33,072 nt of DNA, taken from Gemmatimonadales bacterium (GTDB lineage: Bacteria > Gemmatimonadota > Gemmatimonadetes > Gemmatimonadales > GWC2-71-9). The DNA is taken from positions 1 through 33,072 of the forward strand of contig JAICJD010000019.1 in the NCBI GenBank assembly GCA_025928645.1, in the 5' to 3' direction. Shown in pieces: positions 13,247 through 18,701 of this stretch (the first letter of the stretch is position 1; every line of letters starts with the position of its first letter). A program made the position numbers and the translations under genes. Under the pieces are notes generated by a model. The model did no database searches. It saw only the letters and a program-made list of their open reading frames with translations, and was not told the origin of the DNA.

Positions 13247-13684
13247 CTACCTTCCTGTGCTGCCGAAGCCGCCGGCCCCGCGCGCGGTGCCGGGCAGCGC
13301 GTCGACGGGCCGGAACGCCGCCCGTTCGACCCGCGCGATCACCAGCTGGGCGATCCGCATGCCGCGGGTCACCTCGAACGGCTCCGCGCCGAGGTTGACC
13401 AGCATGATCATGAGCTCGCCCCGGTAGTCGCTGTCGATCGTCGCCGGGGTGTTGGGCAGCGTGATCCCATGGCGCAGCGCCAGACCCGACCGGGGCCGCA
13501 CCTGACACTCGAAGCCCTCGGGCACCGCGATCGCGAAGCCGGTGCGAAACAGCTTCCGCTCCATCGGCGCCAGCATGCCGTCATCCGCGCTGGCGATGTC
13601 GTAGCCCGCGGCGCCCGGCGTGGCGAGGCTGGGCAGCGGGAGGCCGTCGGCGTGGGGAAGCCGGCTGATGAGCACCTCGGTCAC
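13247..13684 (-). CDS. dut: dUTP diphosphatase
   Basis: Hydrolyses dUTP to dUMP and pyrophosphate, keeping uracil out of DNA and feeding dTMP synthesis. The 145-residue trimeric-type enzyme shows all five motifs: GAAGYDIAS (1), [10 protein letters not shown] (2), [10 protein letters not shown] with the catalytic Asp region (3), [10 protein letters not shown] (4) and the C-terminal [10 protein letters not shown] (5, the flexible arm that closes over substrate). The GTG start at 13684 overlaps the ald stop as GTGA. The gene ends directly at the GGACGGAGA repeat. Coupling with ald is a local arrangement with no evident functional link. Confidence 0.96.
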
Positions 13685-14793
13685 AGGACCGAGGCGACGT
13701 CGGTCAGGGGGAGCCGGAAGGCCTCGGCGACGCCCGGGTAGACCGTCTTCCCCTCGACCACGTTGAGCCCCAGCGCCAATGCCGGGTCGGCCTTGCAGGC
13801 GGCACGCCAGCCGAGCTTGGCCAGCTTAAGTCCATATGGCAGCGTGGCATTGGTCAGGGCGAGGGTGGACGTCCGCGGCACCCCTCCGGGCATATTGGCG
13901 ACCGCGTAGTGCAGAATGCCGTCGACGAAGTAGGTGGGATTTTCGTGGGTGGTGGGTTTGATCGTCTCGACACAGCCGCCCTGGTCGACCGCGACGTCCA
14001 CGATGACCGACCCCGGCTTCATGGTCTTGAGGTCGGCCCGCTTGACCAGGTGCGGCGCCTTGGCCCCCGGCAGGAGGACCGCCCCGATGACCAGATCGGC
14101 CCGGGCGATGGCGTCCAGAATGTTGTGGCGGTTGCTGTAGACGGTGTCCACGTTGGCAGCCAGCACGTCGTCCAGGTAGCGCAGGCGGTCGAGCGAGATA
14201 TCGAGGATGATCACGTGGGCGCCGAGCCCCGCCGCCATCTTGGCCGCGTTGATGCCGACCACGCCGCCGCCGATGATGACCACCTCGCCCGGCGCCACGC
14301 CCGGCACCCCGCCCAGCAGAATTCCGCTCCCCCCGAAGACCTTCTCCAGGTACTTGGCGCCTTCCTGGACCGCCATCCGTCCGGCCACCTCGGACATGGG
14401 CGTGAGCAGGGGCAGCTCGCCGCTGGGGAGCTGCACCGTCTCGTAGGCCACGGCGATCGCCCCCGAGTCGATCACGGCCCGGGTCAGATCCTCCGCCGCC
14501 GCGAAGTGGAAGTAGGTGTAGATGACCTGGCCGCGCCGCATCCGCGGCCACTCGGCCGCGATCGGCTCCTTCACCTTCATGATCATGTCGGCGCGCTGCC
14601 ACACCGCGTCGGCCGTGGGAAGGATCTCGGCGCCGGCCGCCCGGTACGCCTCGTCCGGGAAGCCGCTGCCGAGTCCCGCGCCGGTCTCGACGGACACCGT
14701 GTGTCCCGCCGCGACGAACGCTTCGGCGCCCGCCGGCACCAGGGCGATGCGGTTCTCGTTCGTCTTGATCTCCTTCGGCACGCCGATGAGCAT
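13681..14793 (-). CDS. ald: Alanine dehydrogenase
   Basis: NAD-dependent interconversion of L-alanine with pyruvate and ammonia. The 370 residues equal the usual length. It begins [20 protein letters not shown] with the substrate-binding Arg, then IMKVKEP (catalytic Lys area), [13 protein letters not shown] (catalytic His), and the Rossmann motif [21 protein letters not shown] followed by an Asp at the end of strand two (VIILD). The later stretch [20 protein letters not shown] is typical. The start ATG 14793 is preceded by GAGG six bases upstream; an upstream in-frame extension to 14862 is not supported. The 186 bases before it hold a long inverted repeat. Confidence 0.96.
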
Positions 14794-14855
14794 CGGATCC
14801 TCACGTTCGGGGGATAGGAATGTGGGTGGCCGGCGGTGAGCGGAGCGCGCCCCAG

Positions 14856-14942
14856 TCTTCATCCCGAGCGCAGCGAGGGACCTTGCCGCGAACTGTCTCG
14901 AACTCGGCCCAGCAAGGTCCCTCGCTGCGCTCGGGATGAAGA
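14856..14942. repeat. Perfect 31-bp inverted repeat in ald upstream gap
   Basis: The arms 14856-14886 and 14912-14942 are exact reverse complements over 31 bases, separated by a 25-base loop (14887-14911). Each arm contains the core ATCCCGAGCGCAGCGAGGGA. The element lies between the M16 peptidase stop (14980) and the ald start (14793). As RNA it would form a very stable stem and could act as terminator or processing site. From memory, cores like this recur between genes in many GC-rich genomes; I cannot check that here. Confidence 0.9.
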
Positions 14943-14979
14943 AGGCAGCCGGCCGGCCCTTCCGCTTACCGCGTGCTCC

Positions 14980-16236
14980 TCACCGCTCCGGCCCGAGCCG
15001 CACCACCGTCTGCCGCTCGGGCGCGAAATATTCCGCCGCCACGGCCGCGACCTCGTCCGCGGTCACGGCGTCGATCTCCGCCAGCATGCGGTCGAGCGGG
15101 CGGTACTCGTCCTCGTGGAGCACGAACCCGGCAAGCCGGCCCATCCGGGCCGACGGGCTCTCGAGCGAGAGCATCACCTGCCCCTTGAGCTGCTGCTTGC
15201 CGTCGGCCAGCTCGTCCGGCGGCAGGCCCTCGCGCGCGATGCGCGCATACTCGGCCCGGATCGCGTCCGCCGCGGCGTCCGCCGTGGCCGGCTGGGTGCC
15301 GATGTAGGCGCCCAGCTGGCCCGCGGACTGATAGAAGTGCTTGTAGGCGAAGATCGCGTAGGCCAGGCCGAGCTCCTCGCGCACGCGCTGGAACAGCCGG
15401 CTCGACATGCCGCCGCCGAACACATTGGTCAGGATGGCGAGGGCGAACCGGCGCGGGTCGCGCAGTGGAAAAATGTCGGTGCCGAACACAATGTGCGTCT
15501 GCGCCGTGTCCCGCGTCTCGTGGCGCGCCTGCCCCCGGGCCGCGGGCGTCGGGGTGACGGGCCGGCGCGCGGGCTCCAGCGCCTTGCCCTCGAACCAGCC
15601 CTCCCGCTCCAGCACGGTGAGAAGCTGGTCGTGGTTCACGTTGCCCGCGGCCGCCACGACGAAGTTGCCGCGGTAGTACCCGGTGGCGTGGAGGCAGCGG
15701 AGATCGTCGGCCGACAGCGCCGCCAGCGTGTCCGCGCTGCCGAGAATCGAGTACCCGTACGGGTGCTCGGGCCAGAGCGCCGCGGCGTGAAGCTCGAAGA
15801 CCAGATCGTCCGGCGTGTCCTCAACACCGTTGATCTCCTCGAGGATGACGTTCCGCTCGGGCTCGAGGTCGCTCTCGCGGAGCAGCGGCCGGCGGGCGAG
15901 ATCGGTGAGGATCTCCACCGCGAGGGGAAGATCGGCGTCGAGGGTGTGCGCCTGGTAGCTGGTGTAGTCGCGGCCGGTGAAGGCGTCGAGGCTGCCGCCC
16001 CGCACCTCGAGCTCGAGCGCGAGAGCCTTGGCGCTCCGACGCTCGGTGCCCTTGAAGACCATGTGCTCCAGCAGATGGGAGATCCCCATCTGCTCGCGGC
16101 GCTCGTGGGCGCTCGCCGTGCGCACGTAGAGTCCCGTGGCGGCCGAGCGCACCCCGGGGAGCTGCTCGGTGAGGACGACGAGCCCGTTCGGCACCGTGGT
16201 GCGAAAGAGCCCGTCGTCGAGCTTGACCGTGTCCAA
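14980..16236 (-). CDS. M16 family zinc peptidase (processing-peptidase-like)
   Basis: Zinc metallopeptidase of the pitrilysin family, related to mitochondrial processing peptidase beta and bacterial YmxG/PqqL-type proteins. The 418-residue protein has the inverted zinc motif HLLEH (His54, Glu57, His58) and the distal Glu at about 134 in ILEEINGVEDTPDD, the classical 76-residue spacing, so it should be catalytically active. The C-terminal half has FGGGMSSRLFQRVREELGLAYAIFA, typical of the family. The start is TTG at 16236, with a clear AAGGAG nine bases upstream inside the end of pnp. The same pnp-peptidase order is known in Bacillus-type genomes. The substrate is unknown. Confidence 0.92.
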   Translation of the reverse strand: MDTVKLDDGLFRTTVPNGLVVLTEQLPGVRSAATGLYVRTASAHERREQMGISHLLEHMVFKGTERRSAKALALELEVRGGSLDAFTGRDYTSYQAHTLDADLPLAVEILTDLARRPLLRESDLEPERNVILEEINGVEDTPDDLVFELHAAALWPEHPYGYSILGSADTLAALSADDLRCLHATGYYRGNFVVAAAGNVNHDQLLTVLEREGWFEGKALEPARRPVTPTPAARGQARHETRDTAQTHIVFGTDIFPLRDPRRFALAILTNVFGGGMSSRLFQRVREELGLAYAIFAYKHFYQSAGQLGAYIGTQPATADAAADAIRAEYARIAREGLPPDELADGKQQLKGQVMLSLESPSARMGRLAGFVLHEDEYRPLDRMLAEIDAVTADEVAAVAAEYFAPERQTVVRLGPER

Positions 16237-16242
16237 GTGAAG

Positions 16243-18327
16243 CTACTCCTTGGGCAGCAGCGCCTTCCGGGAGAGCTTCATGCGCCCGCGGTCGTCCACC
16301 TCGAGCAGCTTGACCTGGACGATGTCGCCCTTCTTGACCACGTCCTCGGTCTTCTCGGTGCGGCCGTGCTGGAGCTCGCTGATGTGGAGCAGGCCCTCGA
16401 CCCCGGGCAGGATCTCGACGAACGCCCCGAAGGCCGTCGTGCTCTTGACGGGCCCCTCGTAGGTGCGCCCCACTTCGGGCTCGGTGGTGATCGCCGCGAC
16501 CATTGCGCGCGCCTTCTCGCCCGCCTCGCCGCCGATGGCGGAGATGGTGACGAGCCCGCTGTCCTCGATATTGATCTTGGCGCCCGTGGCATCCTGGATG
16601 CCGCGGATCGTCTTGCCCTTGGGGCCGATGACGTCGCCGATCTTGTCGGGCTTGATCTGCATCGTGAAGATACGCGGCGCGTACTTCGAGAGCTCGGTGC
16701 GCGGCCCGGGCAGGACCTTGGCCATCTCCTTCAGGATGAAGAGGCGGCCCCTCCGCGCCTTCTCCAGCGCCTGCTCCATGATGCGGAGGTCGAGGCCTTC
16801 GATCTTGATGTCCATCTGGATCGAGGTAATGCCCTTCTCGGTGCCGGCCACCTTGAAGTCCATGTCGCCGAGATGGTCCTCGGAGCCCAGGATGTCGGTG
16901 AGCACCGCGACCTGGTCGCCTTCCTTGATCAGGCCCATCGCGACGCCGGCGCAGGGCGCCTGCATCGGCACGCCCGCGTCCATGAGCGCGAGCGACCCGC
17001 CGCACACGGTGGCCATCGAGCTCGAGCCGTTGGACTCGAGGATCTCGCTCACCACCCGCAGCGTGTAGGGGAAGTCCTCGTAGTGCGGCAGCAGCGGCTG
17101 CAGCGCCCGCTCGGCCAGCGCGCCGTGGCCGATCTCGCGGCGGCTGGTGCCGCGGATCATCTTGACCTCGCCGGTGGAGAACGGCGGGAAATTGTAGTGC
17201 AGCATGAACGACTTGGTGGTCTCGCCGGCCACGTCGATGCTGTCGATGCGCTGCTCGTCGTCGGCGGTGCCCAGCGTGGCGGACACCAGGGCCTGCGTCT
17301 CGCCCCGCTGGAACAGCGCCGAGCCGTGCGTGCGCGGGAGCACCCCGGTCTCGATGCTGATCGGACGGATCGTGTCGAGATCGCGGCCGTCCACCCGCTC
17401 GCCCTTCTCGAGCACCTGGCGGCGCATCACGCGATACTCGACGTCCTCGAGCTCGGCGCTGATCTCGCGTCCCTTCTCGGGGAACTGCTCGAGCAGCTTG
17501 GCGACGGTCTGTTCGCGCACCGCCCGGACCCCGCCGGCCCGGCCGGCCTTGTCCTTGGCGTTGATGGCCTGCGCCATCTCCCCCTCGGCCAGCTCCCGCA
17601 CGCGGGTCACCAGCGCCGCGTCCGCCGGCGCCTTGGTCCACGCCAGCTTGGGCCGGGCGCCGGACTTGTCGATGAGCTGCTTCTCCAGACCGATGATGTC
17701 GCGGATGCCCTTCTGCGCGACCTTGAGCGCCTCGAGCATCTCGGTCTCGGAGACCTCGAGCGAGCCGCCCTCGACCATGACGATGGAGTCGGCCGAGCCG
17801 CTCACCACCAGATCGAGGGTGGAGAACTCGAGCTGCTGGAAGGTCGGATTGAGGATCCAGTTCCCCTCCACCCGGCCCACGCGCACGGCCGCCAGCGGGC
17901 CGTTCCACGGCACCGAGGACAGGCTGAGCGCGGTCGACGCGGCCACCACGCCGAGGGTGTCGGCGTCGTTCTCCTGATCGGCCGACAGCACCGTCACGAA
18001 CACCTGCACCTCGTTCTTGAACCCCTCGGGGAAGAGCGGCCGGATCGATCGGTCGATGATGCGGCCCGCGAGGATCTCGTCGTCCGACGGCCGCCCCTCG
18101 CGCTTGAGGAACCCGCCGGGAATCTTGCCCGCGGCATAGGTCTTTTCGCGATACTCGACGGTCAGGGGGAAGAACGGGAGGGCGGAGATGTTGGGGGACA
18201 CGGTGACGGCGGCCAGCACCATGGTGTCGCCGAAGCGCAGGAGGGCGGAGCCCGCCGCCTGCTTCGCCAGGCGCCCGGTTTCCAGCATGATCGGGCGTCC
18301 GGCGAACTGGGTCTCGATCCGTTGCAC
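16243..18327 (-). CDS. pnp: Polyribonucleotide nucleotidyltransferase (PNPase)
   Basis: Phosphorolytic 3'-to-5' exoribonuclease, part of the RNA degradosome. 694 residues. It has two RNase PH domains, from QFAGRPIMLETGRLAKQAAGSALLRFGDTMVL and from RPISIETGVLPRTHGSALFQRGETQ, separated by a helical linker. The active-site region holds ILGSEDHLGDMDFKVAGT with its Asp residues. A KH domain (IGPKGKTIRGIQDATGAKINIED) and an S1 domain (GPVKSTTAFGAFVEILPGVEGLLHISEL) follow. I chose GTG 18327, eight bases after AAGG; a second GTG at 18333 is too close to that signal. It follows rpsO as in many bacteria, where PNPase controls its own mRNA. Confidence 0.96.
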   Translation of the reverse strand: MQRIETQFAGRPIMLETGRLAKQAAGSALLRFGDTMVLAAVTVSPNISALPFFPLTVEYREKTYAAGKIPGGFLKREGRPSDDEILAGRIIDRSIRPLFPEGFKNEVQVFVTVLSADQENDADTLGVVAASTALSLSSVPWNGPLAAVRVGRVEGNWILNPTFQQLEFSTLDLVVSGSADSIVMVEGGSLEVSETEMLEALKVAQKGIRDIIGLEKQLIDKSGARPKLAWTKAPADAALVTRVRELAEGEMAQAINAKDKAGRAGGVRAVREQTVAKLLEQFPEKGREISAELEDVEYRVMRRQVLEKGERVDGRDLDTIRPISIETGVLPRTHGSALFQRGETQALVSATLGTADDEQRIDSIDVAGETTKSFMLHYNFPPFSTGEVKMIRGTSRREIGHGALAERALQPLLPHYEDFPYTLRVVSEILESNGSSSMATVCGGSLALMDAGVPMQAPCAGVAMGLIKEGDQVAVLTDILGSEDHLGDMDFKVAGTEKGITSIQMDIKIEGLDLRIMEQALEKARRGRLFILKEMAKVLPGPRTELSKYAPRIFTMQIKPDKIGDVIGPKGKTIRGIQDATGAKINIEDSGLVTISAIGGEAGEKARAMVAAITTEPEVGRTYEGPVKSTTAFGAFVEILPGVEGLLHISELQHGRTEKTEDVVKKGDIVQVKLLEVDDRGRMKLSRKALLPKE

Positions 18328-18396
18328 AGTCACTACCTTCTCTCTCTCTTGGTCGCTCGGGTTTCTTTGCTGCTTGGAATGGACAGAACGCCGAGA

Positions 18397-18424
18397 GGGC
18401 GTCCCGATGTGAATCAGGACGCCC
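18397..18424 (-). terminator. Stem-loop in rpsO-pnp gap
   Basis: A perfect 8-bp stem GGGCGTCC/GGACGCCC (18397-18404 with 18417-18424) with a 12-base loop lies 17 bases after the rpsO stop. In E. coli the matching gap carries an rpsO terminator and an RNase III stem that lets PNPase repress itself. The same role here is an inference. No T tract follows. Confidence 0.45.
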
Positions 18425-18440
18425 CCGCGGCACAACGGAT

Positions 18441-18701
18441 CTAGTGGCGCAGTCCGAGCTGCTCGATGAGGGCTCGGTAGGTCTCGAGGTCGCTCCGCTT
18501 GAGATAGGTCAGCAGGCGACGCCGCGTGCCGACCATCTTGAGCAGACCTCGGCGCCCGTGATGATCCTTGGGGTGGGTACGGAAGTGCTCGGTGAGCGAG
18601 TTGATCCGTTCGGTGAGCAGGGCGACCTGCACCTTGGCCGAGCCGGTGTCGCCGGCGCCGATCTGGTGCTTGGTCATCACTGCCTGCTTGTCGAAGCTCA
18701 T
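18441..18701 (-). CDS. rpsO: 30S ribosomal protein S15
   Basis: Binds the central domain of 16S rRNA early in assembly of the small subunit. 86 residues, close to the usual 89. The family core is clear: [51 protein letters not shown] and the C-terminal [12 protein letters not shown]. The ATG at 18701 gives the standard N-terminal helix; the next ATG would remove it. It is preceded by a promoter candidate and followed by a stem-loop and pnp. S15 autoregulation is common in bacteria, but the leader here is short and no pseudoknot could be judged by eye. Confidence 0.97.

Follow-up and report, generated by a model that had tools for sequence, protein, structure and literature searches.

A REPIN unit consists of two inverted REPs with a short spacer, and the d(GCGNAGC) mini-hairpin is known as a synthetic or aptamer motif; GNA loops and sheared G/A pairs are stable. 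Among the described systems, the CGTC-tagged REPs (Di Nocera et al. 2013, PMC3733652) resemble the locus reported here most closely. In the accessible part of that paper, these REPs carry the tag CGTC, often TGTC or CCTC, have A and T as the first stem residues, stems of 8-9 bp, loops of 4-5 bases, and a short unpaired tail, mostly CCA. They occur mostly as inverted dimers, comprise four families, and have no dedicated transposase found; the same part of the paper names five phyla as hosts, and Gemmatimonadota is not among them. For the E. coli REP, the available sections of PMC8266576 report that TnpAREP needs a 5′ tag and stem mismatches, and that it cuts at CT beside the hairpin. Furthermore, an excerpt of PMC6006769 mentions that Y1 subclasses 2.6 and 3 have flanking structures of an atypical kind.

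The window, namely the whole stretch of DNA analysed here, comprises 33,072 nucleotides and is contig C292 of a 3.89-Mb, 294-contig, 97%-complete Gemmatimonadales genome (G000, the host genome). It contains an inverted repeat which, judged by its sequence, has REP anatomy in a REPIN-like doublet; it is closest to the CGTC-tagged superfamily and is set apart from the published families by its stem and loop lengths. The REP features observed were a short palindromic module, many mostly intergenic copies, and an unpaired 4-base tag preceding the hairpin on its 5′ side. As in the CGTC-tagged REPs, so far as the accessible part of PMC3733652 covers them, we found a 4-base tag, A/T first pairs, inverted dimers, and no Y1 transposase. 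The tag may be of the CGTC type: GTC, which the search pattern did not demand, was present in 138 of 150 arms from the cross-phylum loci described below, and in the host genome the tag was mostly CTTC (60/96 arms), with TGTC, TTTC, CCTC, CGTC, and others. In contrast to those REPs as described there, the stem of each arm is divided by a tandem G/A mismatch into an outer part of 5 bp and an inner part of 2 bp, the loop has 3 bases, and the tail is CT or CC. Because these stem and loop lengths do not fit, the element was not placed in any of the four families in that part of the paper.

Two inverted modules form the unit (48 tag-outward doublets), as in the Pseudomonas REPINs; unlike in the RAYT REPINs, the host genome has no detectable Y1 gene and none of 30 Y1 loci was flanked by these arms. 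With the E. coli REP, as portrayed in the available sections of PMC8266576, the element shares a 5′ tetranucleotide, two conserved mismatches within the stem, and a foot with CT, whereas the E. coli tag is GTAG, the sequence is different, and a Y1 enzyme is not detected in the host genome. The core GCGNAGC of the mini-hairpin motif is present in each arm, where, unlike in the motif itself, G/A mismatches and a longer stem surround it. A literature search by title and abstract, which handles sequence strings poorly and lacks most subscription papers, yielded no paper on repeats with the core letters or on the peptides HPERSEG or HPELVEG, and a word search yielded nothing on Gemmatimonad inverted repeats. 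The letters GAGCG were absent from the available portions of the main texts of PMC3733652, PMC12306157, and PMC6006769.

The inverted repeat between the M16 peptidase gene and ald

The preliminary description had reported a perfect 31-bp inverted repeat with a 25-base loop between two genes, and this was confirmed. The two 31-nt arms (14856-14886 and 14912-14942) were complementary at 31/31 positions (100%) and 25 nt apart, and Pfam identified the neighbours as an M16 peptidase gene and ald. Both genes are on the minus strand; the M16 gene ends 37 bp before the repeat, and ald begins 62 bp after it. Among the 14 other inverted repeats in the same 2.4 kb, the longest had 27 nt (70%) and 19 nt (84%). 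The features are as follows.

13684..14793, minus strand: ald, alanine dehydrogenase, the downstream neighbour (Pfam PF01262 and PF05222)
14857..14860, plus strand: CTTC tag of the left arm, with which the element ends outwards (conservation across the 48 doublets stops here)
14861..14881, plus strand: predicted mini-hairpin of the left arm, ATCCC-GA-GC-GCA-GC-GA-GGGAC, the outermost pair being A/C in this copy (sequence, cross-phylum covariation)
14882..14886, plus strand: inner part of the left arm, CTTGC, pairing with 14912-14916 (complementarity)
14887..14911, no strand: 25-base loop of the doublet, variable among copies, with a TCGA centre common in its class (doublet comparison)
14912..14916, minus strand: inner part of the right arm, CTTGC on the minus strand (complementarity)
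14917..14937, minus strand: predicted mini-hairpin of the right arm, identical in sequence to the left one when read on the minus strand (doublet comparison)
14938..14941, minus strand: right tag, CTTC on the minus strand (doublet comparison)
14980..16236, minus strand: M16 peptidase gene, the upstream neighbour, with its 3′ end towards the element (Pfam PF00675 and PF05193)

When the minus strand with its flanks was folded as RNA, the energy was -82.8 kcal/mol, whereas 200 shuffles averaged -48.2 (z -8.6) and none of them equalled it.

The repeat also affects the calling of open reading frames. At its outer end, the left arm contains an in-frame ATG (14860-14862, minus strand). An ORF call from this codon (13681-14862) adds 23 codons to ald and runs into the repeat, whereas the ald start that fits Pfam is at 14793. 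On the plus strand, an antisense ORF (14836-18444, 1202 aa) opens by translating the arm as SLHPERSEGP. One HPERSEG ORF is thus in the window, and small ORFs bearing this peptide occur more widely. Such peptides probably arise as spurious translations of the repeats, and the module may account for the spurious small ORFs in which they are found.

Copies of the doublet in the host genome

Searching the host genome with a 24-base arm (up to 3 mismatches) gave 82 forward and 80 reverse matches, and the reversed-pattern control in the same genome at the same threshold gave 0. With exact gapped patterns, 31 short-loop pairs, including that of the window, and 17 longer-loop pairs were found, making 48 tag-outward doublets. 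Of these, 44 were clear of predicted genes and 4 overlapped one. The recurrence of the core between genes, for which the preliminary description had suggested a genome-wide count of copies and pairing, was borne out by many arms and paired doublets instead of a single copy. The anatomy and context statistics given below for the host genome refer to the 48 exact doublets (96 arms), about 62 arms outside exact pairs being left out. A slightly stricter paired pattern had matches in 7 of the 10 genomes in the genus and in none of 51 others, with 44 paired copies in the host genome versus 0-10 in its congeners. The interiors differed by class, and in two congeners (G002 and G006) a third interior type was present between the same arms.

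Across the 96 arms, the module was ordered as the 4-base tag, ATCCC, GAGCGNAGCGA, GGGA followed by C or T, and a final C (CT in the column view). Conservation started sharply at the tag and weakened towards the interior of the doublet. In the six columns outside the tag, agreement within copies was 0.27-0.38 versus 0.27-0.34 between copies; in most tag and arm columns, the two arms of a copy agreed at 0.85 or more. The free loop base was common to both arms of one copy at 0.79 versus 0.36 between different copies, and in the inner part of the arm some columns agreed more within than between copies of the 48 doublets. This agreement within copies is also expected from template-switch correction, and the copies could be old ones kept alike by conversion or selection.

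The second base of the tag was strongly associated with the last base of the outer stem, as if tag and foot change jointly, in copies that are related by descent: with G at the tag position the stem base was T in 16 arms and C in 4, and with any other base it was C in 68, T in 6, and G in 2.

The M16-ald spacer in congeners

The corresponding site was compared within the genus. Together with a readable M16-ald spacer, ald was recovered in 8 of 9 congeners (G005 gave only a distant ald relative), and the spacer differs among nine genomes of the genus. None of these arms was present in the spacers of G003 and G008. One solo arm was found in G004, a degenerate doublet in G006, unrelated sequence in G007, and doublets of other type in G001, G002, and G009. 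In the ald gene tree (801-1110 aligned bases), the host genome grouped with G004 (support 0.97), and these two then grouped with G003 and G008 (0.995). The distribution fits loss plus new gain at one site, in spacers too diverged for an exact empty site to be aligned.

Two further observations were made at these spacers. In G001, G002, and G004 (loci L059, L054, and L049), an arm (TGTCAYCCTGA) is fused to the coding end of the M16 gene and gives its stop codon. The spacer of G007 (L053) contains another short repeat, GCGTGAGCGGGAAC, twice, directly downstream of the M16 gene.

The mini-hairpin and its covariation across phyla

A scan of the genome collection across phyla, in which the letters were left free at two stem pairs, gave at least 119 loci. 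Among the matches listed, these fell into about 20 phylum-level groups as read from record titles, where titles of MAGs can err and some loci are perhaps chance matches (a stricter pattern found nothing in the L113 genome). In 150 arms from the loci listed, the two free pairs were Watson-Crick in 147 and 128 arms, respectively, while 2000 shuffles averaged 62.9 and 99.3 and reached at most 86 and 109. The 3′ foot was CT or CC in 141 of the 150 arms, again without being demanded by the pattern, and information was about zero beyond tag and foot.

The genome and viral samples had been seeded with exact arm patterns, and the invariance of letters fixed in a pattern is therefore no evidence. In a core-free search, the tag and the 5-bp outer stem were demanded and the core letters were left free; 239 genome and viral loci were among the matches listed. 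GA..GA was present in 317 of the 357 hits, 52 of which did not have the seed core, compared with 44 of 8952 control windows with unpaired flanks. The inner pair nearest the mismatch was A-T instead of G-C in 20/317 and not Watson-Crick in 6/317. These counts and the compensatory pairs indicate covariation in both the outer and the inner stem, with the tandem G/A retained. The arm is, as predicted from these comparisons, a mini-hairpin with a 5-bp outer stem, a tandem G/A mismatch, a 2-bp inner stem, a GNA triloop, and a CT/CC 3′ foot, and the G/A pairs would form on the GA strand only. In a DNA energy model, the isolated arm gave -3.3 kcal/mol, and 45 of 200 shuffles folded as well; this model may under-credit GNA loops and sheared pairs.

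Where neighbouring arms in the 239 loci listed were less than 150 bp apart, 46 pairs were tag-out, 7 tag-in, and 16 same-direction. The same loci also contained 47 arm-to-arm intervals of 400-4000 bases, which might bracket a gene.

Exact arms were then counted in 11 genomes with two slightly different patterns. The numbers were 468 in Reyranella, 311 and 141 in Hymenobacter, 184 in a Chloroflexales genome, 80 and 40 in Mucilaginibacter, 26 in Edaphobacter, 16 in Silvibacterium, 6 in Pedobacter, 1 in Methylotenera, and 0 in Oscillospiraceae. Among the matches listed, tag-outward pairs were frequent in Hymenobacter and one Mucilaginibacter; no tag-outward pair within 100 bases was found among the first 24 of the 184 Chloroflexales arms. 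The module was also present in at least 120 stretches of contigs labelled viral.

The proposed mobilising enzyme and alternative explanations

The preliminary description had considered a REP-type element mobilised by a RAYT transposase. Its REP-type part holds in the anatomy, the pairing, and the mostly intergenic placement, and its RAYT part is not supported: the enzyme search, which covered the Y1 family (PF01797), gave no match in the 97%-complete host genome. A classical RAYT REPIN whose enzyme has since been lost from the genome, or lies in its unassembled part, is an improbable explanation, despite the REP-like anatomy and the Y1 genes of four congeners (G001, G003, G005, and G007). Over 200 Gemmatimonadota genomes, of which 25 had arms, 52 had Y1, and 12 had both, the two do co-occur (12/25 versus 40/175, p 0.013); however, inside family f1 the link was gone (11/18 versus 16/25 genomes, p 1.0), and the three arm-richest of the 200 genomes (the host genome with 126 arms, G215 with 114, and a third with 28) were all without Y1. 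Within the genus, paired elements numbered 1, 0, 0, and 0 in the four Y1-bearing genomes versus 44, 6, 2, 2, 10, and 7 in the six without it (p 0.033), a contrast limited to the paired class because a wider single-arm pattern found 14 arms in the Y1-bearing G007 (and one in G003). Furthermore, 37 of 54 searched genomes (G005 counted twice) had a Y1 match, and 30 Y1 loci, one per genome, had no arm in their flanks (up to 1.5 kb each). Given the missing Y1 match, the Y1 loci without arms, and the absent link in f1, RAYT as the mobiliser in the host genome is not supported. It is most improbable that the element is a DDE-type MITE whose terminal inverted repeats are the arms. Such a MITE would account for conserved ends around unrelated interiors, including the third interior in G002 and G006, but the arms are also found singly, with their own stems covarying, and a 4- or 5-base direct repeat was present in at most 2 of 47 testable copies (boundary offsets within 6 bases). 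This explanation was rejected on the missing target-site duplication.

The gene context bears on a different possibility, namely a selected 3′-end element whose RNA hairpin shields or processes the mRNA ends between M16 and ald, with copies fixed as useful and not mobile. We consider it unlikely. The stem is very stable, and 45 doublets with two neighbours lay between tandem genes in 31 cases, convergent in 12, and divergent in 2 (3 more were at contig edges). The median distance was 38 bp to a gene 3′ end (57 neighbours) versus 72.5 bp to a start (36 neighbours). Solo arms in other genomes were sense to tandem genes in 55 cases and antisense in 26 (p 0.0017, with a crude ORF caller and several tests made). 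Background spacers at the same loci, however, were tandem in 50, convergent in 8, and divergent in 9 cases, so that the shift was not significant (p 0.057 for convergent versus divergent; p 0.19 for divergent versus the rest), and promoter-avoiding insertion would give an identical picture. The orthologous spacers of two congeners have no arm. An intrinsic terminator was also rejected, since the consensus scan gave 0 terminator-like sites and the sequence has no T-run after the stem. Rfam applied to 14600-15200 (E up to 1) gave eight hits. Six to four miRNA families and one to snaR-A fell on the hairpin, and the eighth, to Guanidine-III, lay outside it; because all scores were far below gathering, the hits were read as chance matches of a long hairpin.

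We favour a non-autonomous REPIN-like doublet that is probably multiplied as a unit through folded single-stranded DNA by a trans-acting enzyme other than a detectable Y1/RAYT. Two REP-type modules would be placed tag-outward, and the GA-bearing strand of each would fold alone into its mini-hairpin. The doublet would be the multiplying, non-autonomous unit, recognised as folded single-stranded DNA, and the enzyme acting on it in trans would not be a detectable Y1/RAYT transposase of the host genome. Mobility is what we infer, from sequence comparisons, for an element whose anatomy, copy number, arm pairing, compensatory stems, mostly intergenic placement, and site difference among congeners are as observed above. 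Transcripts of the upstream gene would include many copies at their 3′ ends, and as a by-product such copies could be cut by RNase III or act as a barrier at RNA ends.

More tentatively, a single 27-base module, [TC]GTC-AT-stem-GA-GC-GNA-GC-GA-stem-AT-C[TC], might have spread in about 20 phylum-level groups without RAYT, by a widespread or horizontally moving enzyme reading the tandem G/A mismatch; we regard this as possible but doubtful. Compared with the CGTC-tagged REPs as presented in the accessible part of PMC3733652, such a module would have a wider host range and a defined folded target with compensatory changes. The genomes with more than 100 arms and no detectable Y1 would provide a sharper handle, and the fixed 27 bases a bait, for an enzyme search.

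Strand bias of solo arms

The strand of the solo arms was compared with GC skew and transcription. Of all solo arms, 94/153 were on the C-rich strand, in neighbouring windows that are not independent. Under a stricter arm definition, the genome loci showed no bias (51 versus 46, that is, 51/97), and the viral-contig loci (L264-L383) had 78 versus 36 arms (78/114) on the negative-skew strand. No link of solo arms with net transcription was found (86/154, p 0.17); consecutive solo arms had identical direction in 24/33 cases (p 0.014, several tests made). In Silvibacterium bohemicum, where the skew was at most 0.07, 8 of 16 arms were on the C-rich strand.

In Edaphobacter lichenicola (G069, L384-L423), all 26 exact arms were on the C-rich strand (negative GC skew over 20 kb), two local flips included, as expected of an enzyme working one replication-fork strand. 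The strand assignment there rests on Pfam because the gene callers disagreed; Pfam placed genes on both strands in windows L385, L415, and L420, with a match for 16 of 20 ORFs. We regard this asymmetry as a lead. The GC skew of this genome reached 0.2-0.3 over many 20 kb windows, and its sign flipped repeatedly along the contigs. In the sampled windows of a low-skew stretch of contig C2 (1.5-2.25 Mb), one arm was present.
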